Origin: an uncultured Spirochaetales bacterium | Lineage (GTDB): Bacteria > Spirochaetota > Spirochaetia > Sphaerochaetales > Sphaerochaetaceae | Assembly: GCA_949299185.1 (NCBI GenBank) | Contig: CASFZR010000001.1 | Location: 62,001 to 126,000 of the forward strand | Direction of reading: 5' to 3' | DNA: 64,000 nucleotides | Position numbers and translations under genes: made by a program | The notes under the pieces: generated by a model | Told to the model about the DNA's origin: nothing | Databases searched by the model: none | The model's input: only the letters and a program-made list of their open reading frames with translations | Shown here: piece by piece, positions 2 to 64,000 of the stretch | Layout: every line of letters begins with the position of its first letter | How positions within the stretch are numbered: position 1 is the stretch's first letter

Positions 2-616
2 GGCGTGCGCTGGGAGAGCAAGGAGCATCTTAGGTTCGTTGATGAGGTCTTTGAGACGATAGCCTATGCCGCGATCGAGGAATCATCGGAGCTTGCCATG
101 GAGAAGGGAAGCTATAGCTGTTTCGAAGGTTCCGAGTGGGATACCGGCCTTTTCTTCGAGCGCCGCGGCTACACATCCCCTCAGTGGCAGGAGCTGAAGA
201 GGAAGGTCCATGAGCGAGGCATGAGGAATGCATATCTCCTGGCAATCGCTCCGACCTCATCGACATCCATCCTTTCCGGGACGACAGCAGGAGTGGATCC
301 TGTGATGCAGCGTTTCTTCTATGAGGAGAAGAAGGGTAGCATGCTTCCTCGGGTCGCGCCGGAGCTTTCTCCTGCGACATGGTGGTACTACAAGTCAGCG
401 TATCAGATGGATCAGAGCTGGTCTGTTCGTGCTGAGGGCGTGAGGCAGCGCCATATCGATCAGGCGCAGTCGATGAATCTCTATATAACGAATGACTATA
501 CGATGAGACAGGTACTGGACCTGTACATCCTTGCGTGGAAGAGCCATGTCAAGACGATCTATTACGTCCGCTCCAAGAGCCTTGAGGTCGAGGAGTGCGA
601 GAGCTGCTCAAGCTGA
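2..616 (+). CDS. nrdA: Ribonucleoside-diphosphate reductase alpha subunit, C-terminal part (5' truncated by window)
   Basis: The reading frame is open from the left edge, so only the last 204 residues of the large subunit of class I ribonucleotide reductase are present. This enzyme reduces ribonucleoside diphosphates to deoxyribonucleotides. Visible family marks are the PTSSTSILSGTTAGVDP stretch (about residue 84 of this part), the paired tyrosines of the radical-transfer path in TIYYVRSKS near the end, and the redox-active C-terminal cysteine pair in EECESCSS. The nrdB start codon follows the stop after 10 nt, so the two subunits form one operon and are probably co-translated. The apparent GTG at position 5 is only an internal codon. 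Confidence 0.93.
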   Translation, partial: GVRWESKEHLRFVDEVFETIAYAAIEESSELAMEKGSYSCFEGSEWDTGLFFERRGYTSPQWQELKRKVHERGMRNAYLLAIAPTSSTSILSGTTAGVDPVMQRFFYEEKKGSMLPRVAPELSPATWWYYKSAYQMDQSWSVRAEGVRQRHIDQAQSMNLYITNDYTMRQVLDLYILAWKSHVKTIYYVRSKSLEVEECESCSS

Positions 617-13143: not shown

Positions 13144-14511
13144 ATGTCAACCCTTTTGATAAAGAACGGACTGATCGTAGATACGGAATGGACGAGACAT
13201 TCCGATATCCTCGTCGATGGCTCGAAGATCGTAAGGATCGCACCTCATATAGATGAGTCAAGGCTTCCTCAGGGAACTGATATAATCCATGCGGATGGGC
13301 TCTGCGTGCTTCCCGGCATAATCGATGCCCATACGCATTACCATCTGGTATCAAGAGGAACCGTGACCGCGGATTCCTTCGAGGAGGGCTCCAAGCTTGC
13401 CGCGTTCGGCGGCGTCACTACCGTTGTCGACTTTGCCGATGATAACAAGGAGTCCCTGCTGGAGTCATTGTCTGAGCGCCGGCATGAGATGAGGCCAATG
13501 GCGATAGACTATGCCCTGCATCAGGGGGTCTATGGATATCGTGATGATATCCAGACGGAGCTTGAGGAGATCAAGGCCGCCGGCTGCGGAACGATCAAGA
13601 TCTTCACGACCTATCGTGACGTAGGATACCTCGTGGAGAAGCGTGAGGAGCTTAAGGAGATATTCCGGGCTGCCTCATCGCTTGGCATCATGGTCACGAT
13701 ACACTGCGAGGATGACAAGCTCATCGAGGAGATAAACAGCGGCTGGAAGGGCGGCCATCGTCCTATAGACCACGCGTCGCTCCGGCCGGCGGAAGTAGAG
13801 GCTGCCGCGATAAGGTATGTAGGAGAGATCGCCGAGGAGATCGGCATGAGCATATATGTCGTACATCTCTCGTCGAAGGCCGGACTTGAGGCTGTGAGGG
13901 AACTCAGGAGCCGCGGTGTCACGGTGAACGTCGAAACCACGCCGCATTACCTCTTCCTCGATAAATCCAAGCTTGAAGGCGATGATGGCCCCCTCTATGT
14001 GATGACCCCGCCCCTGCGTACCCCAGAGGACAACAAGGCCCTGCAGGAAGCGCTCCTTGATGGCGAGATACAGGTGGTTGCGACGGATCATTGCTCATTC
14101 ACTCGTGAGCAGAAGCTATCATCAGATGATTGCCGTACGATCTATCCAGGAATTCCTGGAACTGAGGAACTACTACCATTGATAAACACATTCGCCCATT
14201 CAAGCGGCAAGCTATCGTTATCTCAGGTAGTCAACCTGCTCTCTACCGGGCCTGCAAAGCTCTTCGGGCTCTACCCGGAGAAGGGCGCGCTCAGAGAGGG
14301 CTCCGATGCTGATATCATCCTCTTCAATCCGGAGTGGCCTTGGGTCCTGTCCGCAGAGTCCCTTCATTCCGCTTCCGGATACACTGCGTATGAAGGGTTC
14401 AATGTCACCGGAAAGGTAGTGATGACCTATCTTCGTGGCCGATTGGTGATGGGAGATGGCATCTATCTCGGCATAAGCGGAGATGGAAGGTTCATAAGGG
14501 CTCAGAGATGA
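13144..14511 (+). CDS. Dihydropyrimidinase / D-hydantoinase family amidohydrolase
   Basis: This 455-residue metal-dependent amidohydrolase opens cyclic amide rings such as dihydropyrimidines or hydantoins. Ligands are all visible: DAHTHYH (about 60), the carboxylated Lys in CGTIKIFTTY (about 155), HCED (about 188), VHLSSKAG (about 240) and the catalytic Asp in ATDHCSF (about 317). Length fits the family (450-480). There is no ribosome site, and the start is judged leaderless. The stop overlaps the next start as ATGA, tying it to the phosphatase-cytidine deaminase fusion and suggesting pyrimidine catabolism or salvage. Allantoinase is a less likely alternative. Confidence 0.85.
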   Translation: MSTLLIKNGLIVDTEWTRHSDILVDGSKIVRIAPHIDESRLPQGTDIIHADGLCVLPGIIDAHTHYHLVSRGTVTADSFEEGSKLAAFGGVTTVVDFADDNKESLLESLSERRHEMRPMAIDYALHQGVYGYRDDIQTELEEIKAAGCGTIKIFTTYRDVGYLVEKREELKEIFRAASSLGIMVTIHCEDDKLIEEINSGWKGGHRPIDHASLRPAEVEAAAIRYVGEIAEEIGMSIYVVHLSSKAGLEAVRELRSRGVTVNVETTPHYLFLDKSKLEGDDGPLYVMTPPLRTPEDNKALQEALLDGEIQVVATDHCSFTREQKLSSDDCRTIYPGIPGTEELLPLINTFAHSSGKLSLSQVVNLLSTGPAKLFGLYPEKGALREGSDADIILFNPEWPWVLSAESLHSASGYTAYEGFNVTGKVVMTYLRGRLVMGDGIYLGISGDGRFIRAQR

Positions 14512-37249: not shown

Positions 37250-38536
37250 ATGAGCATCATCAAACCCCACAAGCTCGGAGTCATCGCTGGTCCGGGCAGC
37301 GAGTATTTCACCGGAAAGGTCGTCAAGCATCTCAGGCGCCTTTACATCGACCGATACGAGAAGCTATCGGAGGCTCTTACCAAGAGGCACGATATCAGCG
37401 CTGAGCAGCTTCTGAAGTTCGTGACCCTTGAGGACGATCTCGATAGCCGGAAGATCCCTGCAGGGAAGCTTCCCACATCCTTCCATTGCCCCGACATGAC
37501 GATCAACGTGAAGTACACGAGGTTCGCCAACGGAGAGGAGAAGGCAGAGATCATCGATCCTGTCAGGGGACTGCATGTATATATCGTCCATGACGTATCG
37601 AACAGCGCGCCGATCAAGGTTGCCGGACTGGATGAGCCGCAGCCGATCTCCGTAAACGACCATCTGATGTTCCTCTTCACGACGATCAATGCCGTCAAGC
37701 TCGCCGGAGCCGAGTCGATCACGCTCGTACTGCCGACCTACCCATATGCAAGGCAGCATAAGAAGGCCGGGCGCGAGGCCCTTACCGCATCGATGTTCGC
37801 TCACTTCTGCGAGAACCTCGGCGTTTCCAGGATCATCACACTCGACATCCATTCCCGTGAGATCGAGAACGCATTTACCACATGCCATCTCGAGAACCTA
37901 CATGGCTCGTATCAGACGCTTATCGCGCTCCGCAAGCTCATAGACTTCTCTGATCCGGATCTCGTTGTCGTATCTCCTGATACAGGTGCCGTATCGAGAA
38001 ACAAGTTCTACGCGCAGGGGCTTCATCGCCCGCTTGCCATGCTCTACAAGGAGCGTGACTACTCCGTTGTCTCGAAGGATGCGAAGAACTCCAACATCAA
38101 GAGCATCAACCTCCTTGGAGACGTCAAGGGCAAGACCGTCCTGATGGCTGATGATATGATCGCTACCGGCGGTACGATGATCATAGCGATGCGCGAGCTG
38201 ATGAACAGGGGAGCCAAGAGGATCATCTGCATGGTCTCCCTCCCGTTCTTCAACGGCAATGCCATCGAGAACTTCGATGCCGCCTACAAGGAAGGGGTGT
38301 TCTGGAGGATCATCGGAACCAACGCCGTATATCAGGGGAAGGGACTCTTGGAGAAGGAATGGTTCGTTCAGGCCGATGTCACGGAGCTTTTCGCCCGCGT
38401 AATATCGCGTCTGCACCATGGCCGCTCGATCTCCCCGCTTCTCGATAACCGCAAGTTCATTCAGAAGCTTATCGATACGTCACAGGCAAATCCTGCCGCT
38501 CCTCTTATCCAGGACAGCTCGCTGATGGCTGACTGA
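37250..38536 (+). CDS. prs: Ribose-phosphate pyrophosphokinase, extended form
   Basis: This 428-residue enzyme makes PRPP for nucleotide, histidine and tryptophan synthesis. It is about 110 residues longer than the usual bacterial enzyme, with inserts in the N-terminal half (about 20-90). Conserved parts are TRFANGEE (about 85), LPTYPYARQHKKAGRE (about 165), the PRPP-binding loop VLMADDMIATGGTM (about 300) and GAVSRNKFYAQGL (about 245). Long versions of this kind occur in spirochaetes. The histidine operon in this window depends on its product. Confidence 0.92.
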   Translation: MSIIKPHKLGVIAGPGSEYFTGKVVKHLRRLYIDRYEKLSEALTKRHDISAEQLLKFVTLEDDLDSRKIPAGKLPTSFHCPDMTINVKYTRFANGEEKAEIIDPVRGLHVYIVHDVSNSAPIKVAGLDEPQPISVNDHLMFLFTTINAVKLAGAESITLVLPTYPYARQHKKAGREALTASMFAHFCENLGVSRIITLDIHSREIENAFTTCHLENLHGSYQTLIALRKLIDFSDPDLVVVSPDTGAVSRNKFYAQGLHRPLAMLYKERDYSVVSKDAKNSNIKSINLLGDVKGKTVLMADDMIATGGTMIIAMRELMNRGAKRIICMVSLPFFNGNAIENFDAAYKEGVFWRIIGTNAVYQGKGLLEKEWFVQADVTELFARVISRLHHGRSISPLLDNRKFIQKLIDTSQANPAAPLIQDSSLMAD

Positions 38537-47546: not shown

Positions 47547-48059
47547 ATGCTTGATATCTATACGCTCGGAGACGAGGTTCTCCGCGAGGAATGTAAGGAT
47601 ATAACGGAATTCGACTCGGCACTGAGGATGCTGGCCGATGCCATGCTCGACACGCTTGATGAGGCGGATGGGGTAGGGCTTGCCGGCCCGCAGGTCGGCG
47701 TGCCGCAGAAGATCTTTGTCGTGCATATAAGCGGCAATGCGCCTATGTACTTCATCAATCCCTCGATCATCGAGACGAGCATAGAGGAGTGCCCCTATGA
47801 GGAGGGCTGCCTCTCCGTGCCCGGTGTCTATCATGATGTGATAAGACCGGCCTCCGTTACTGTCCAGGCCCAGGACCTTGATGGTAAGCCATTCACGCTC
47901 AAGGCAGACGGGCTCCTTGCCCGCGTCATCCAGCATGAGAACGATCATCTACATGGGGTACTTTACATCGATCATCTCTCAGAGAACGACAAGAAGGCAG
48001 TCATAAGGTCCTATGAGAGGAAGAACAAGGCCAGGCTCAAGGCCAGGAAGAGGGTCTGA
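47547..48059 (+). CDS. def: Peptide deformylase
   Basis: This 170-residue metalloenzyme removes the formyl group from new proteins. All three motifs are present: GVGLAGPQVG (about 46, with Gly replacing the common Ala), EEGCLSVPG (about 92) with the metal Cys, and QHENDHLHGV (about 134) with both metal His and the catalytic Glu. The fmt start immediately follows the stop. The start at 47547 has no ribosome site and fits a leaderless mRNA. Confidence 0.95.
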   Translation: MLDIYTLGDEVLREECKDITEFDSALRMLADAMLDTLDEADGVGLAGPQVGVPQKIFVVHISGNAPMYFINPSIIETSIEECPYEEGCLSVPGVYHDVIRPASVTVQAQDLDGKPFTLKADGLLARVIQHENDHLHGVLYIDHLSENDKKAVIRSYERKNKARLKARKRV

Positions 48060-58286: not shown

Positions 58287-58859
58287 ATGAGAAAGGTATT
58301 TCCACTTGCATTTTCCGGCGCTCTGATGCTCTTTGTCGGTATCTATATGATAGTACGTCCTGATGATTTCCAGGCCGTGGTGATGGTTATACTGGGAATA
58401 TATATCGTGTTCGATGGAGTGAGGTCGCTTGTCTCCCTGATGCGCTATCGTTCTATATTCTCACCGGCTGTACGGACGATCGATGGGATAAAGACGGTTG
58501 TCAACATCATCCTGGGTCTCGTGGTCATACTGATAGCCTTCATGCGTCCGACCCTTCTCCTGACGGTGGTCATCTATATCATCGCATCTGATTTCCTCCT
58601 TACCGGCATCTTCAACTTCATCAACTGCATGGCGCTTTCGAGGCTTGGGATGATGTTCGGGTCCCTGGGCCTTGAGGCCGTCCTCTCATTCCTCTTCGCG
58701 ATCATCCTCTTCATGTTCCCAGGCTTCGTGGGCTCGGTGGTGATGACGCTATTTGCCGCGATTTTGTTAGCTTCAGGAGCTGTGATGATATTCGCCGCAG
58801 TCAGCAGCCTTATCTTCCAGCATAGGCTCAGCAAGATGGATAAGGGAGATATCATCTGA
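58287..58859 (+). CDS. HdeD/DUF308 family membrane protein
   Basis: This 190-residue protein has six predicted membrane helices in three hairpin-like pairs, the layout of the HdeD (acid-resistance membrane protein) family. Examples are SGALMLFVGIYMIVRPDDFQ at the start and FLFAIILFMFPGFVGSVVMT near residue 148. The function is not settled. The start at 58287 gives the usual length; an extension to 58230 would overlap the divergent gene. A strong terminator follows at 58863-58886. Confidence 0.82.
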   Translation: MRKVFPLAFSGALMLFVGIYMIVRPDDFQAVVMVILGIYIVFDGVRSLVSLMRYRSIFSPAVRTIDGIKTVVNIILGLVVILIAFMRPTLLLTVVIYIIASDFLLTGIFNFINCMALSRLGMMFGSLGLEAVLSFLFAIILFMFPGFVGSVVMTLFAAILLASGAVMIFAAVSSLIFQHRLSKMDKGDII

Positions 58860-58862
58860 ACT

Positions 58863-58886
58863 AAAAGCGTAGAATTCTACGTTTTT
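58863..58886. terminator. Bidirectional-type intrinsic terminator
   Basis: AAAAGCGTAG and CTACGTTTTT arms close an AATT loop, giving a 10-bp stem with A and T tracts on both sides. It ends the HdeD-like gene and isolates the histidine operon. Confidence 0.85.
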
Positions 58887-58990
58887 CGTTTGCATAAGAG
58901 AATCTTGTTTAATTAATATGAGATCCGCAGATTCAGTATCTTGGTTCTGAATGGATTTGCATTGATTCTCATTTCTGCCTTCCTCTTCTA

Positions 58991-59019
58991 TTGACCATGC
59001 CTCGCGGCTGGGTTATCGT
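58991..59019 (+). promoter_or_regulatory. Promoter of the histidine operon
   Basis: -35 TTGACC (58991-58996, 5 of 6), 17 bp, -10 TATCGT (59014-59019), then exactly 6 nt to the ATG of the leader peptide at 59026, the same geometry as other leaderless genes in the window. Confidence 0.65.
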
Positions 59020-59025
59020 CTGAGC

Positions 59026-59061
59026 ATGAACAGAAACGTACACCATCATCATGCTTGCTAG
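59026..59061 (+). CDS. hisL: Histidine operon leader peptide (MNRNVHHHHAC)
   Basis: An 11-codon frame encodes four consecutive His (codons 6-9) and stops 80 nt before hisG. Runs of His codons are the sensing element of classical his attenuation: ribosome stalling when His-tRNA is scarce prevents the terminator from forming. It has no ribosome site, and its ATG falls at the predicted transcription start, so the leader peptide itself seems to be translated from a leaderless mRNA. It was not found by length-based gene calling. Confidence 0.75.
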   Translation: MNRNVHHHHAC

Positions 59062-59126
59062 TCATGCAATCATGCCATGATGGGTTTCTTGTATATCGAG
59101 GTCTCCCTTTGGCGGAGGCCTTTTTT
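59047..59126 (+). promoter_or_regulatory. Histidine operon attenuator
   Basis: The His-codon segment CATCATG (59047-59053) is complementary to CATGATG (59076-59082). Further on, AGGTCTCC (59099-59106) and GGAGGCCT (59114-59121), with a 7-nt loop and TTTTTT (59121-59126), form an intrinsic terminator that ends 16 nt before hisG. I see no strong antiterminator pairing; GGG at 59082-59084 with CCC at 59105-59107 is the best candidate. Confidence 0.72.
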
Positions 59127-59141
59127 CGTTAAGGAGGGCGT

Positions 59142-60002
59142 ATGAGCGAGATGCTTAGCATAGCGATCCAGAAGAGCGGAAGGCTCTCTGAGAAGAGCCT
59201 TGATATCATCAGGCAGTGCGGGATCGACTTCGGGACAGACTCCAGGGTGCTTAGGGAGGTCGCCGATAACTTCCCCCTTGAGTTCCTGTTCGTGCGTGAT
59301 GATGATATCCCGCGCTATGTCTCCGATGGCGTTGCCGATATCGGTATCGTCGGACGCAATGAGTACGATGAGACCGGGCTTGAGCTTGAGGTCGTGAGGG
59401 ATCTGAGGTTCGCTTCCTGCCGCCTGTCGATCGCCGTGCCTTCGTCCTTTGACTATAAGGGACTCAAGTCCCTTGAGGGCAAGCGCATAGCCACCTCCTA
59501 TCCTCGTATCCTCCGTAGCGTCCTTGATAAGGCTGGGGTCAATGCGGAGCTGGTTGTCGTTTCCGGCTCCGTGGAGATAACGGTGCAGATCGGCGTGGCG
59601 GATGCTATTGCGGATCTCGTCTCTACAGGAACGACCTTGCGGATGAACGGACTCGTGGAGGCCGAGTGCATCTACCGCTCCTCTGCCGTGATGATAGCCC
59701 GCCCTGATATGACAGAGGAGAAGAAGCGGACGCTCTATCGTCTGATGGAGAGGGTAGACGCGGTGATGATGGCGAGGAAGAAGAAGTATATCCTCTTCAA
59801 CCTTCCCAAGGACAGGCTCGATGAGGCTGCCCTGATCATCGGCGGCATGAAGAGCCCTACGGTAACGCCACTCATGGACCGGGATTGGATATCGGTGCAG
59901 TCTGCGGTGGACGAGGAGCGGTTCTGGTCTGTATTCGAGAGTCTCCGGGAGATCGGAGCGGAGGGAATACTCGTGATGAACATAGAGAAGATGACGGAGT
60001 GA
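59142..60002 (+). CDS. hisG: ATP phosphoribosyltransferase, long form
   Basis: This 286-residue enzyme catalyses the first step of histidine synthesis, joining PRPP to ATP. Its length and the C-terminal ACT-like domain (about 205-286, starting near MKSPTVTPL) mark the long, self-sufficient HisG_L type that is feedback-inhibited by histidine, not the short form needing HisZ. The PRPP-binding region is VSGSVEITVQIGVADAIADL (about 140-160). AAGGAGGG lies 3 nt before the ATG, directly behind the attenuator. Confidence 0.94.
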   Translation: MSEMLSIAIQKSGRLSEKSLDIIRQCGIDFGTDSRVLREVADNFPLEFLFVRDDDIPRYVSDGVADIGIVGRNEYDETGLELEVVRDLRFASCRLSIAVPSSFDYKGLKSLEGKRIATSYPRILRSVLDKAGVNAELVVVSGSVEITVQIGVADAIADLVSTGTTLRMNGLVEAECIYRSSAVMIARPDMTEEKKRTLYRLMERVDAVMMARKKKYILFNLPKDRLDEAALIIGGMKSPTVTPLMDRDWISVQSAVDEERFWSVFESLREIGAEGILVMNIEKMTE

Positions 60003-60005
60003 GAC

Positions 60006-61289
60006 ATGCTGCTGCGATACTGTGGATTCTCAGATGAGATACTGAAGAGGCCGGAAGAGGGCCGTGATGATATCATCGCATCAGTGCAGGAGATAATCGA
60101 TGAGGTAAGGCGTGGCGGCGATGAGGCGCTCCTCAGCCTGTCAGAGCGCTTCGATGGCAGTCGCCCTGATTCCCTTTTCGTGAGCGACGCGGAGCTTGAT
60201 GAGGCGGAGAGAGCCCTTCCTGCGTCGCTGAAGGAGGCAATGGAGGCGGCAAGGAGGAATATCCTTGCGTTCCATTCTGCTCAGATGCCTAAGGGCGAGA
60301 GCGTAGAGACCGCTCCCGGAGTCGTATGCTCCAGGAAGATCGTCCCGATAGACCGCGTGGGCCTTTATATCCCCGGTGGGACGGCTCCTCTGTTCTCTAC
60401 GGTGCTGATGCTTGCTGTTCCGGCCTCTGTCGCGGGGTGCAGGGATATCATGCTGGCTACTCCTGCTAAGGATGGCGTGGTGAATCCAGCCATACTCTAT
60501 GCCGCGAGGATCTCCGGCGTCGGCAGGATACTTAAGATCGGCGGCGCGCAGGCCATCGCGGCGTTTGCCTATGGCACGGAGAGCGTAGAGCGGCGCGATA
60601 AGATCTTCGGACCAGGCAACAGGTATGTCACTACAGCCAAGATGCTCGTCTCATCGACGGTAGCCATAGATATGATCGCTGGACCTTCGGAGGTCATGGT
60701 CGCCGTTGATAGAAGCTCCGATCCGCTCTTCGCCGCCACCGATCTCCTGTCTCAGGCAGAGCATGGCAAGGACAGTCAGGTGATGCTTGCCATCCGCGCG
60801 GAGAGCGAGGAGGAGGCAAGAGGGATATATGAGGCTATAGAGCGTGAGCTGGAGGCGGAATGCGAGAAGCTCGGACGGAGGGAGTATGTATTGCCATCTC
60901 TTTCCCATTCCGCGGCATTCCCCGTATATAGCGATGAGGCGCTCATAGATGCTATAAACGAGTATGCGCCGGAGCATCTTATTATCAATACATCAGATCC
61001 CGATAGGATCATGGATGGGGTGAGGAACGCTGGTTCGGTGTTCCTCGGCCCGTACTCTCCTGAGTCCGCAGGGGACTATGCCTCGGGGACGAATCACACG
61101 CTGCCGACCTCAGGATGGGCCCGCTCCTCTTCAGGGGTATCCTTGGATTCATTCCTGAAGAAGATAACGGTACAGCGACTGACGCAGGAAGGCATAGCGG
61201 GGCTTGCCCCGATAGTCGAGGAGATGGCAGGGGCCGAGGGACTGGCCGCGCATAAGGAAGCAGCCGCAGTAAGGAGGATGAGTATATGA
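60006..61289 (+). CDS. hisD: Histidinol dehydrogenase
   Basis: This 427-residue zinc enzyme oxidises histidinol to histidine in two NAD-dependent steps. Conserved parts are PGGTAPLFSTVLM (about 124), DLLSQAEHGKDSQVM (zinc ligands Gln and His, about 250), EYAPEHL (catalytic Glu-His, about 320) and ASGTNHTLPTSGWAR (about 360-375). GGAG lies 6 nt before the ATG. It overlaps hisC by 4 bp. Confidence 0.95.
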   Translation: MLLRYCGFSDEILKRPEEGRDDIIASVQEIIDEVRRGGDEALLSLSERFDGSRPDSLFVSDAELDEAERALPASLKEAMEAARRNILAFHSAQMPKGESVETAPGVVCSRKIVPIDRVGLYIPGGTAPLFSTVLMLAVPASVAGCRDIMLATPAKDGVVNPAILYAARISGVGRILKIGGAQAIAAFAYGTESVERRDKIFGPGNRYVTTAKMLVSSTVAIDMIAGPSEVMVAVDRSSDPLFAATDLLSQAEHGKDSQVMLAIRAESEEEARGIYEAIERELEAECEKLGRREYVLPSLSHSAAFPVYSDEALIDAINEYAPEHLIINTSDPDRIMDGVRNAGSVFLGPYSPESAGDYASGTNHTLPTSGWARSSSGVSLDSFLKKITVQRLTQEGIAGLAPIVEEMAGAEGLAAHKEAAAVRRMSI

Positions 61290-62332
61290 GTGAGATAGCA
61301 GACCTGATGAATGAGCAGATACGGACGCTCGTGCCGTATCTTACCGTACGCGATGGATACGAGGGGCCGCTTGATATCCTCCTCGATGCCAACGAGTCAT
61401 GGCTCGGAGGCAATGATGGCGTGAACAGGTACCCGGATCCTCAGTGCGTGGAGCTTCGCAAGGAGATAGAGCGCGTCATCGGACTGCCTTGGAAGATGAC
61501 GGCCATAACCAATGGCTCCGATGAGGCCATAGACCTGATCATCAGGATATTCTGCCGTCCCGGCAGGGATTCGGTGATGGTCTCTGATCCTACCTTCGGC
61601 GAGTATGGGATATTCGCCTCGCTCAACAGCGTCAGGACGATCAATGTGCCGCAGAGGGCTGATTACATGCTCGATGTCGAGAGGATGCTTGCGGAGATCG
61701 ATGAGAAGAGTCCAAAGCTGGTCTTCATATGCTCTCCTAACAATCCGACCGGCATCCTCTATCCTGAGGACGATATCCTCCGCATCGCCGAGCATAACAA
61801 GGGCATTACGGTAATCGATGAGGCTTATATCGACTTCACTGGCACAGATGGACTATGGAAGCGGATAATGGAGAATCCTAGGATCATCGTATTCCGTACC
61901 ATGTCCAAGGCTTGGGCGCTTGCGGGGGCGCGTGTCGGTATCATAGTAGGATGCGAGGAGGTCATAGAGGCTGTCATGAAGGCCAAGGCACCATACAATG
62001 TCTCCAGGCTTTCACAGGATGCCGCGATGGAGATGCTCAGGCGTCAGGACGAGGTCCGGGAGCTAGTCAGTGAGGCGGTCTCGGAGCGTGAGCGCATGGC
62101 GGCGTTCCTCAAGACGCTTCCTTATGTGACCGAGGTCTTCCCGTCAGTCACGAACTTCCTTCTATTCCGCACGCCGGAAGCCGGGAAGCTCTATGAGCAT
62201 CTCCTTGCCAACCGCATCATCGTCCGTAGCTATGCCGATGATCCTATCCTCACGGGCTGCCTGAGGTTCTCCGTCAGTAGCCTCTCTGATAATGATAAGG
62301 TCATGGAGGTCCTCAGTGGATTCAGGATATAG
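61286..62332 (+). CDS. hisC: Histidinol-phosphate aminotransferase
   Basis: This 348-residue PLP enzyme makes histidinol phosphate from imidazole-acetol phosphate. It has the sequence ANESWLGGNDGVNRYPDPQC (about 33-52), ICSPNNPTGILYP (about 150) and the PLP Lys in FRTMSKAWALAGARVG (about 209). ATGA overlap joins it to hisD, and its last 17 bp overlap hisB. Confidence 0.95.
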   Translation: MSEIADLMNEQIRTLVPYLTVRDGYEGPLDILLDANESWLGGNDGVNRYPDPQCVELRKEIERVIGLPWKMTAITNGSDEAIDLIIRIFCRPGRDSVMVSDPTFGEYGIFASLNSVRTINVPQRADYMLDVERMLAEIDEKSPKLVFICSPNNPTGILYPEDDILRIAEHNKGITVIDEAYIDFTGTDGLWKRIMENPRIIVFRTMSKAWALAGARVGIIVGCEEVIEAVMKAKAPYNVSRLSQDAAMEMLRRQDEVRELVSEAVSERERMAAFLKTLPYVTEVFPSVTNFLLFRTPEAGKLYEHLLANRIIVRSYADDPILTGCLRFSVSSLSDNDKVMEVLSGFRI

Positions 62333-63452
62333 GAAGAAGGCCCTCTTCATCGACCGCGATGGCGTGATCGTGATAGAGGATCAGATCGACAGCTTCGAGA
62401 AGATAATATACATGCCCCATGTCTTCGAGGCTCTCCGTGAGATAGGAAGGCGGACTGACTATGAGCTGGTGATGGTCTCTAATCAGGATGGAGTCGGGAC
62501 TCATTCCTATCCGTTCGAGTCATTTGCGGGGCCGGCTGAGAGGATATTCTCCACGCTCCGAGGCGAGGGTATCGTGTTCGATGATGTGAATATAGACTTC
62601 TCGCTTCCTGAGGATAACTGCCCCGGAAGGAAGCCCGGTACGGCGATGCTTGAGGATTATATGGACGGCTCCTATGACCTTGCCTCGTCCTTCATGATCG
62701 GTGACAGGCTCACCGATATGATCCTCGCACAGAGGCTTGGAGCTAGGGGGATATGGTACACGGACAGCGAGGAGGGGATCCCCTCGGATCTTGAGGACAC
62801 GGTTGCCCTGAAGACCGATAGCTGGATCGCGATCGCGTCGTTCCTTACCTGCTCAGAGGTGAAGGAGCATAGAAAAGCCTCTGTCAGACGTACTACCAAG
62901 GAGACCGATATCTCCATAAGCGTCGATCTGGATGGAACAGGGGAAGGGCATATCCACACAGGGATAGGATTCTTCGATCATATGCTCGATCAGGTGGTGA
63001 GGCACTCACGCTGTGATATCTCAGGGGAGGTGGAGGGGGACCTTTACGTCGATGAGCATCATACGGTGGAGGATACGGCGCTTGCCCTTGGCTCTGCGGT
63101 GCTTGAGGCGCTGGGAGAGAAGCGTGGCATAGAGCGCTATGGCTTCGAGATCGTCCCTATGGATGATACGGCGGCGACGGTGGCCATCGATTTCTCCGGC
63201 CGTGATGAGCTGATGTGGGATGTCGTGTTCACGATGGATTACGTCGGCTCGTTCCCCACTGAGCTTTTCCGCCATTTCTTCCGTTCCTTCTCCTCTGCCG
63301 CGAGATGCAATATATATGTATCCGCTACAAGGGGAGGAGACAGCCATCATACGGCGGAGGCTGTGTTCAAGGCGTTTGCTAGGGCGTTGCGGAAGGCCGT
63401 TAAGCGCATTCCCGGTGATGATTCCGTCTCCTCGACCAAGGGGGTGCTATGA
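62316..63452 (+). CDS. hisB: Bifunctional histidinol phosphatase / imidazoleglycerol-phosphate dehydratase
   Basis: This 378-residue fusion has an N-terminal HAD phosphatase (about 1-165: FIDRDGVIV nucleophile, FMIGDRLTDM) and a C-terminal IGP dehydratase (about 190-378: HTGIGFFDHML, DEHHTVEDTALALG, GGDSHHTAEAVFKAF). GTG 62316 is preferred because GGAGG lies 6 nt upstream. The phosphatase zinc loop, which in E. coli has three Cys and a His before RKP, reads DFSLPEDNCPGRKP with only one Cys, so zinc binding is probably lost. The HisN-HisB fusion is mainly known from gammaproteobacteria and a few groups thought to have acquired it. Confidence 0.92.
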   Translation: MDSGYRKKALFIDRDGVIVIEDQIDSFEKIIYMPHVFEALREIGRRTDYELVMVSNQDGVGTHSYPFESFAGPAERIFSTLRGEGIVFDDVNIDFSLPEDNCPGRKPGTAMLEDYMDGSYDLASSFMIGDRLTDMILAQRLGARGIWYTDSEEGIPSDLEDTVALKTDSWIAIASFLTCSEVKEHRKASVRRTTKETDISISVDLDGTGEGHIHTGIGFFDHMLDQVVRHSRCDISGEVEGDLYVDEHHTVEDTALALGSAVLEALGEKRGIERYGFEIVPMDDTAATVAIDFSGRDELMWDVVFTMDYVGSFPTELFRHFFRSFSSAARCNIYVSATRGGDSHHTAEAVFKAFARALRKAVKRIPGDDSVSSTKGVL

Positions 63453-64000
63453 TCGCTGTGATACGGTATGGGGCGGGGAACGTTCGTTCCGTTCTTTCTG
63501 CTCTTGGCAGGTTGGGGGCTGAAGGGACGCTTACCTCTGACCCTGTTGTGATAAAGGCCGCTGACCATGTGATATTTCCCGGTGTCGGAGAGGCATCTAG
63601 CGCCATGGCCTCGCTCTCGGCTTCAGGGCTTATCGACACGATAGGCTCGCTCCGTCAGCCGTTCCTCGGCATCTGCCTTGGGATGCAGCTGATGTGTACT
63701 CATTCAGAGGAGGGGGATACCGATGGCCTTGGCGTGATACCCACCCCTGTCCTGCGCTTCCCGGAAGGCCGGGGATTCAAGATCCCTCATATGGGCTGGA
63801 ATATCATCTCTTCATTGAAGGGGCCATTGTTCCGGGACGTGGCGGAAGGAGAGTATATGTACTTCGTGCATTCATACTATGTCCCTGTCTCTGAATATAC
63901 CAGCGCGGTATGCGAATATGACGGGCTTGAGTTCTCCGCGGCGCTGGAGAAGGATAATTTCTTCCTGACGCAGTTCCATCCGGAGAAGAGCGGCGATGCC
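63449..64000 (+). CDS. hisH: Imidazole glycerol phosphate synthase glutaminase subunit (3' truncated by window)
   Basis: From ATG 63449 (ATGA overlap with hisB) the frame stays open to the window edge, giving 184 residues. It is a triad-type glutaminase that feeds ammonia to HisF, with the oxyanion region PGVGEASSAM (about 49), the nucleophile Cys in FLGICLGMQLM (about 77) and the catalytic His in TQFHPEKS near the end. The remaining his genes (hisA, hisF, hisI) are expected to the right. Confidence 0.92.
   Translation, partial: MIAVIRYGAGNVRSVLSALGRLGAEGTLTSDPVVIKAADHVIFPGVGEASSAMASLSASGLIDTIGSLRQPFLGICLGMQLMCTHSEEGDTDGLGVIPTPVLRFPEGRGFKIPHMGWNIISSLKGPLFRDVAEGEYMYFVHSYYVPVSEYTSAVCEYDGLEFSAALEKDNFFLTQFHPEKSGDA

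Follow-up and report, generated by a model that had tools for sequence, protein, structure and literature searches.

In the window, by which we mean the whole stretch of 64,000 nucleotides analyzed here, a short open reading frame with a run of His codons lies immediately before hisG. This locus raises the question of whether the frame encodes the leader peptide of a histidine attenuator and, if so, whether the peptide would be translated from an RNA that begins at its own start codon. A 5' UTR with a ribosome-binding site is present in the enterobacterial his leader, including E. coli hisL. As noted in the initial annotation of this DNA, neither is visible in the window, where the leader ATG is located 6 nt past the only promoter-like site, at the predicted +1. 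The annotation interpreted the locus as a his attenuator with a leaderless leader peptide, an interpretation that is supported by the sequence comparisons described below.

Organization of the his leader region

We distinguish the following elements at the 3' end of the window.

58991..59019, plus strand: predicted sigma-70 promoter TTGACC-17-TATCGT, the sole promoter-like site in 58700-59200 (TTGACC at 58991-58996, 17 nt, TATCGT at 59014-59019, then 6 nt to the ATG)
59026..59026, plus strand: predicted transcription start, the A of the leader ATG (end of the -10 box plus 6 nt)
59026..59061, plus strand: leader peptide frame MNRNVHHHHAC*, 11 codons, predicted to be leaderless
59041..59052, plus strand: four His control codons CAC CAT CAT CAT, from sequence reading
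59043..59053, plus strand: segment 1 (His codons), from inverted arms
59074..59084, plus strand: segment 2, GCCATGATGGG, which can pair with segment 1 or segment 3 (duplex and swap tests)
59099..59126, plus strand: predicted intrinsic terminator, stem 59099-59106/59114-59121, T6 at 59121-59126
59105..59113, plus strand: segment 3, CCCTTTGGC, the tip of the terminator 5' arm plus the loop
59132..59137, plus strand: hisG Shine-Dalgarno (SD) sequence AGGAGG, from sequence reading
59142..60002, plus strand: hisG, long form with C-terminal domain (TIGR00070 and TIGR03455 over cut-off)
60006..64000, plus strand: remainder of the operon, hisD, hisC, hisB (bifunctional; 436 bits versus the cut-off of 443 of the bifunctional model, with TIGR01261 and one IGP dehydratase model over cut-off) and hisH, which runs past the window end

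The 11-codon frame with four consecutive His codons begins, as first annotated, at the predicted transcription start. The terminator, for which an 8-bp stem and six T had been described, has 8 stem pairs including one G-T pair, or 9 by the count of the terminator scan. Its T run is separated from the hisG ATG (59142) by 15 nt, which corrects the 16 nt given previously. The proposed pairing of the His codons with a segment ahead of the terminator is borne out by perfect 7-nt inverted arms (59043-59049/59077-59083 and 59047-59053/59076-59082). No second promoter-like site was detected when both strands of 58700-59200 were scanned. Since shuffled versions of this region contain on average 0.6 promoter-like and 0.6 terminator-like sites, the window locus alone proves little, and it is conservation that carries the proof. 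Rfam searches gave no family at gathering score anywhere in the 64-kb window, and no T-box riboswitch model matched at that score. In the interval from the upstream gene to the his promoter, an inverted repeat, CGTAGAATTCTACG, followed by five T, was observed at 58868-58886. This repeat has an A run on one side and a T run on the other and is possibly a two-way terminator that can also be read on the minus strand.

Conservation of the His leader among spirochaetes

HisG searches and the stretches fetched with them resulted in 99 loci, each with a HisG match, that represent 71 distinct upstream regions, of which 64 are spirochaetal and 7 belong to Bacteroidota. The initial annotation had named conservation of the His run and terminator upstream of hisG in related genomes as a check of its reading, and such conservation is extensive: an ATG-started His leader ORF was found directly ahead of hisG in 62 of the 64 distinct spirochaete regions first examined. 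At least three His codons are present in 61 of these 62 leaders and two in the remaining one, and all 62 have a terminator-like hairpin with a T run before hisG. The terminator finder is permissive, with 631 of 1240 shuffled segments also yielding some match, and only 1 of the 1240 equals the score of its own locus. The leader RNAs, counted through the end of the T run, are 93 to 119 nt long. The two regions without a His leader (L007 and L008) belong to congeners in which hisG lies directly 3' of an apparent other gene.

At the level of genomes there were 84 HisG matches. Of these, 50 belonged to the first set, and the remaining 34 were retrieved later and scanned for up to 420 nt upstream. 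Among these 34, the His leader was present in 3 (L213, L214 and L215) and absent from 31, one of which (L233) is cut off by a contig end. The gap between promoter and ATG, as judged by eye, is 7 nt in L213 and about 8 nt in L214, and no clear promoter was seen by eye in L215; L214 and L215 thus conform less well to the spacing described below. For HisG matches with at least 44% identity, the leader was present in 51 of 54 genomes (the exceptions being L007, L008 and L216), as opposed to none of the 30 genomes with matches of at most 34% identity. The leader therefore travels with close HisG relatives. According to the HisG search, the nearest relatives of the window genome, itself a spirochaete, are uncultured Spirochaetaceae/Spirochaetales MAGs, Candidatus Ornithospirochaeta and Sphaerochaeta, and the device is also carried by a named strain, Sphaerochaeta halotolerans 4-11 (L079).

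A fixed distance between promoter and leader start codon

The 200 nt before the leader stop codon were searched for a strict promoter, defined as TTGACn, 16-19 nt, TAnnnT. One such site per locus was found in 57 of the 62 leaders, compared to 14 of 1240 shuffles, and a second strict promoter within 200 nt was found at none of the 57 loci. The distance from the end of the -10 box to the ATG is 6 nt in 52 of these loci, 7 nt in 4 and 28 nt in one (L086), while the five leaders that lack a strict site have a weaker -10 sequence (TTTAAT or TAAAAA) at 6 nt. Where the His frame has more than one ATG, the promoter was taken into account in choosing the start. The 25 loci with a single ATG avoid this bias and show 6 nt in 20 cases, 7 nt in two, 28 nt in one and no strict -10 in two. 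Other lengths drift among the 62 leaders (9-30 nt from ATG to first His codon, 21-45 nt from His to stop, 18-41 nt from stop to terminator), and the 6-nt spacer between the -10 box and the ATG occurs in 46 different sequences. The spacing is thus held while the sequence and the other lengths change.

The base at position -1 points in the same direction. It is a pyrimidine in 61 of the 62 leaders versus 32 of the 45 hisG genes that start with ATG (Fisher p = 4e-5), and in 22 of 23 leaders versus 7 of 12 hisG genes when only representatives are counted (p = 0.012); the two bases ahead of it have almost no information content. A pyrimidine followed by a purine is the usual signature of a sigma-70 transcription start, and in these leaders this initiator-like signature falls on the ATG. 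An anti-SD energy below -4 kcal/mol within the 20 nt upstream was calculated for all 62 hisG genes versus 16 of the 62 leader ATGs. The window belongs to the 16 leaders with some upstream anti-SD affinity, the bases in question being ones that would largely be promoter and untranscribed. From the promoter spacing and the -1 base we strongly predict a transcription start that coincides with the leader ATG or is no more than 1 nt away from it.

The alternative that deserves most attention is a his attenuator with a conventional 5' UTR, in which the true promoter would lie farther upstream and the leader ATG would be reached by an SD-led or SD-less leadered route. That a leadered state is possible in this family is indicated by L086, the only one of the 62 with a displaced promoter, where AGGAGG is present ahead of the leader ATG at a distance of 12 nt; this locus represents a natural leadered counterpart of the leaderless leaders. 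An SD-preceded leader frame also occurs before the ilv-leu operon of the window genome (see below), and the anti-SD affinity upstream of the window's leader fits a leadered start as well. Transcription from well upstream had been listed in the initial annotation as an argument against its reading, and we found no indication of it: apart from the one site locked to the ATG, 58700-59200 is devoid of promoter-like sites, the single strict promoter ends 6-7 nt from the ATG in 56 of the 57 loci that have one, the -1 pyrimidine is nearly invariant, and the inverted repeat with five T at 58868-58886 separates the upstream gene from the his promoter. A normal 5' UTR is therefore improbable.

Predicted alternative pairings of the leader RNA

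In the window, segments 2 and 3 can pair through 59074-59077 with 59110-59113 and through 59082-59084 with 59105-59107, the predicted duplex having an energy of -8.6 kcal/mol for the core and -13.6 kcal/mol with flanks (z = -2.1). Compared with shuffled versions of segment 2, z-values below -1 were obtained for the 1:2 duplex in 40 and for the 2:3 duplex in 47 of the 62 leaders. We also swapped segments among 23 representative leaders that are less than 80% alike by a simple string ratio. Energies were -14.5 kcal/mol for own versus -10.7 kcal/mol for swapped 2:3 pairings and -15.1 versus -12.3 kcal/mol for 1:2 pairings, and none of 20000 permutations matched the own pairings.

The leaders were then considered in the co-transcriptional state in which the 5' arm and loop of the terminator have emerged and the 3' arm is absent, with an assumed ribosome footprint of 13 nt from the first base of the A-site codon. 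In the window, the number of arm and loop nucleotides paired upstream is 1.0 in free RNA and 11.2 with a ribosome on the His codons. The same fold gave 1.0 and 12.0 for the E. coli his attenuator, 8.3 and 11.0 for thr, and 2.9 and 5.1 for trp, so that the folding of the leader, another check named at the outset, yields the same pattern for the window as for E. coli his. An increase of more than 2 nt relative to both free RNA and a ribosome at the stop codon was observed in 46 of the 62 leaders. The 16 that miss this double criterion include the window, and E. coli his misses it too; in both, segment 2 stays unmasked when the ribosome is at the stop codon (11.2 nt in the window, 11.7 nt in E. 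coli his). Termination in the window would therefore rely on ribosome release and 1:2 pairing. When the stop-to-terminator segments of the 23 representatives were shuffled, the mean switch score was 5.9 nt for the natural leaders versus 0.0 nt for the shuffles (Wilcoxon p = 2e-5). The score was in the top 5% for 16 representatives and not for 7, and that of the window was reached by 0 of 40 shuffles. The stalled-state score alone was in the top 5% in 13 of the 23, and the window's value was equalled by 10% of the shuffles. By computation, mutually exclusive and ribosome-dependent pairings are thus present, the window switching between free RNA and the His-codon ribosome and not between ribosomes at the His codons and at the stop codon.

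At equilibrium, the window terminator prevails in every state, with a probability of 0.99 even when a stalled ribosome is present, and values below 0.5 with a stalled ribosome were obtained in only 16 of the 62 leaders. This fold cannot decide the matter because the E. coli his, thr and trp attenuators fail it too, their terminators staying at 0.98-1.00. In the full-length fold, the first 12 nt of the window leader are largely paired (mean unpaired 0.29 versus a mean of 0.69 for the 23 representatives), and no structure (0.0) emerged when all 62 leaders were folded to an unguided consensus on a very gapped alignment.

The terminator might instead be constitutive or governed by a protein or another RNA, with the His ORF being incidental or giving rise to a trans-acting small RNA or peptide. 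The dominance of the window terminator in all equilibrium states would fit such a scheme, as would the fact that attenuator RNAs can work in trans, for example rnTrpL of S. meliloti (PMC7298713). It is nonetheless very unlikely in view of the retention of His codons through both synonyms (CAT 164 times and CAC 62 times in the 62 leaders), the matching of segment 2 to its own partners in the swap test, the position of the leader directly before hisG in 62 of 64 regions, and the lack of any Rfam family in the window. Translational control, in which leader ribosomes would affect hisG initiation by coupling or SD exposure, can claim that the T run ends 15 nt from hisG, bringing read-through and initiation close together, but it is scarcely credible with T-run terminators in 62 of 62 leaders and the hisG SD sequence outside the terminator stem.

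Predicted leaderless genes and other leader frames in the window genome

To see how the his leader compares with other genes, about 0.2 Mb of the window genome (contig C1, which contains the window, and two pieces of C27) was subjected to a census of 179 non-overlapping ORFs of at least 120 aa, using as criteria TTG with at least 4/6 matches, TAnnnT and ATG. A promoter-like site 6-7 nt from the ATG was found in 8 of the 179 ORFs where about 0.9 are expected, the remaining 58 spacings from 0 to 59 holding 27 ORFs in total. Leaderless starts hence appear to be nothing out of the ordinary in this genome, though a minority. This can be placed beside the report of Zheng et al. (PMC3160421), in which 6 of 18 spirochaete genomes were predicted to have leaderless genes, at 1.8-6.9%. 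One of the eight census ORFs is the peptide deformylase gene at 47547-48059 of the window (plus strand), which is predicted to be leaderless with the arrangement TTGACG-17-TACCGT-6-ATG. A corresponding pattern (TTGnnn-16..18-TAnnnT-5..7-ATG) precedes the deformylase gene in 17 of the 30 congeneric loci examined, out of 49 genomes with a match. Two further plus-strand ORFs of the window start 6 nt past a -10-like box, namely a dihydropyrimidinase-like gene at 13144 (TIGR02033, barely over cut-off) and an ORF at 37250.

A different type of leader frame was observed on contig C27 of the same genome. Between positions 704 and 944 of locus L138, a GTG frame rich in Ile, Leu and Val, identified by eye in the sequence, is led by GGAGGAG and accompanied by a possible terminator. 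The operon that follows it comprises ilvC, leu genes, ilvD and ilvB (names partly assigned by eye), and the whole has the appearance of a leadered branched-chain attenuator. Because this leader is SD-preceded and the his leader is predicted to be leaderless, both kinds of leader frame seem to exist side by side in one genome. No strict leaderless start was found in the ilvB flanks of 30 loci (of 43 genomes with a match), many of which stop short of the first gene of the operon. The gene trpE was considered as marking a second attenuated operon and rejected, as its model gave partial matches in 4 of 49 congeners, none of them over cut-off. Most congeneric genomes may lack tryptophan synthesis by the trpE route.

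His leaders in Bacteroidota

A sample of 36 Bacteroidota loci was assembled from the 7 loci of the HisG search and 29 of the 47 matching genomes drawn from the Limnovirga soli family; the sample includes some MAGs (L071-L077 and L181-L209). A His leader ORF precedes hisG in 32 of the 36, and a downstream stem with a T run is visible by eye in many of them. The gap between the promoter motif TAnnTTTG and the ATG varies between 4 and 18 nt in all but one of the 32 leaders (4 nt in 11 of the 32), the exception being without the motif, and the -1 base is a pyrimidine in only 22 of 32. The idea of a leaderless device common to both phyla, prompted by the presence of the His leader in Bacteroidota, was therefore rejected, as the gap is not fixed there. 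The His leader is common to both groups, whereas the fixed leaderless start is a feature of the spirochaetes.

Discussion

The his locus of the window is probably a classical ribosome-mediated histidine attenuator whose leader peptide would be translated from leaderless RNA. The analysis establishes the sequence elements, their conservation, the fixed spacing between promoter and ATG, and the matching of segments within species, and from them we infer a course of events for this leader that extends from transcription start through 70S loading, translation and stalling to histidine-dependent read-through. A 70S ribosome would board the bare 5' AUG once this codon exits RNA polymerase. With ample His-tRNA, the ribosome would complete the 11 codons and depart, upon which segment 1 would pair with segment 2, the terminator (3:4) would form, and transcription would halt before hisG. 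When His-tRNA is scarce, the ribosome would stall on the His codons and cover segment 1. With segment 1 hidden, segment 2 would form the 2:3 pairing with the tip of the 5' terminator arm ahead of synthesis of the 3' arm, and RNA polymerase would continue into hisGDCBH.

Apart from its 5' end, the proposed attenuator resembles that of E. coli hisL: both have a His-run leader directly before hisG, competing 1:2, 2:3 and 3:4 pairings and an intrinsic terminator, and they behave alike in the co-transcriptional fold, where a ribosome at the stop codon does not mask segment 2 in either. They differ in size, with 142 nt from ATG to T run in E. coli versus 95 nt in the window leader. The initial annotation considered stalling-based attenuation on a leaderless mRNA an unusual combination for this phylum. 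This holds insofar as no leaderless leader-peptide attenuator in Spirochaetota or for a his operon was found among the literature matches listed, most subscription journals being outside their scope. It needs qualification in that leaderless genes have been predicted for spirochaetes (PMC3160421) and leaderless attenuators are on record for other bacteria, as follows. For ilvBNC of Corynebacterium glutamicum, a leader start codon one nucleotide from the transcription start and transcription attenuation are described, and among the start-codon and control-codon mutants tested the ATG mutation lowers expression by 80% (PMC11857589). That system differs in responding to branched-chain amino acids, in belonging to Actinobacteria and in its three-hairpin leader of 292 bp. 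Similarly, the trpL RNA of Sinorhizobium meliloti is reported to begin at the ATG of a 14-aa leader peptide and to act by transcription attenuation (PMC7298713); it concerns tryptophan, is found in Alphaproteobacteria and has an additional trans action. Mycobacterial leaderless polycysteine uORFs are likewise leaderless amino-acid-run ORFs that control operons (Canestrari 2020, via PMC13236596), with the differences that the amino acid is cysteine and that the mode is described there as translation attenuation.

The hisDCB leader of C. glutamicum AS019 is described as lacking such a peptide, other his operons of that species being transcribed leaderless (PMC3896937), and a 2005 survey of Actinobacteria states that it found no conserved RNA structure before histidine operons (PMC1262725). 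In a 2010 survey of terminators, His leader peptides were reported before hisS-type genes in bacilli, and the authors stated that they knew of demonstrated leader-peptide systems from Proteobacteria and Actinobacteria only (PMC2965389). A transcriptome map of Flavobacterium is reported to contain strong indications of leader-peptide attenuation upstream of amino-acid operons (PMC9723704). What appears to be new in the present case is predicted leaderless attenuation for the his operon and in Spirochaetota, the surprising part being the spacing that is locked across the family.

One may ask whether leaderlessness is a selected working part of the attenuator and not an accident. An AUG at +1 would make the nascent 5' end a loading clock, exactly one ribosome would load per transcript, and entry of a second would be blocked by the first, which on stalling at the first His codon (codon 4 to 11 of the frame) would cover the 5' end. 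We put this forward tentatively and regard it as rather doubtful. If leaderlessness is indeed selected, attenuation would report leaderless 70S initiation as well as the supply of His-tRNA.

A named strain, S. halotolerans 4-11, has the device, which makes what leaderless initiation contributes to attenuation open to direct test. The family moreover offers a natural comparison set consisting of the near-universal fixed spacing, L086 with its SD-like site, L007 and L008 without the device, and the SD-preceded ilv leader. The his leader would represent a compact natural device of roughly 100 nt, used family-wide, in which leaderless ribosome loading must match the pace of RNA polymerase. If our reading is true, it would extend leader-peptide attenuation to the Spirochaetota.
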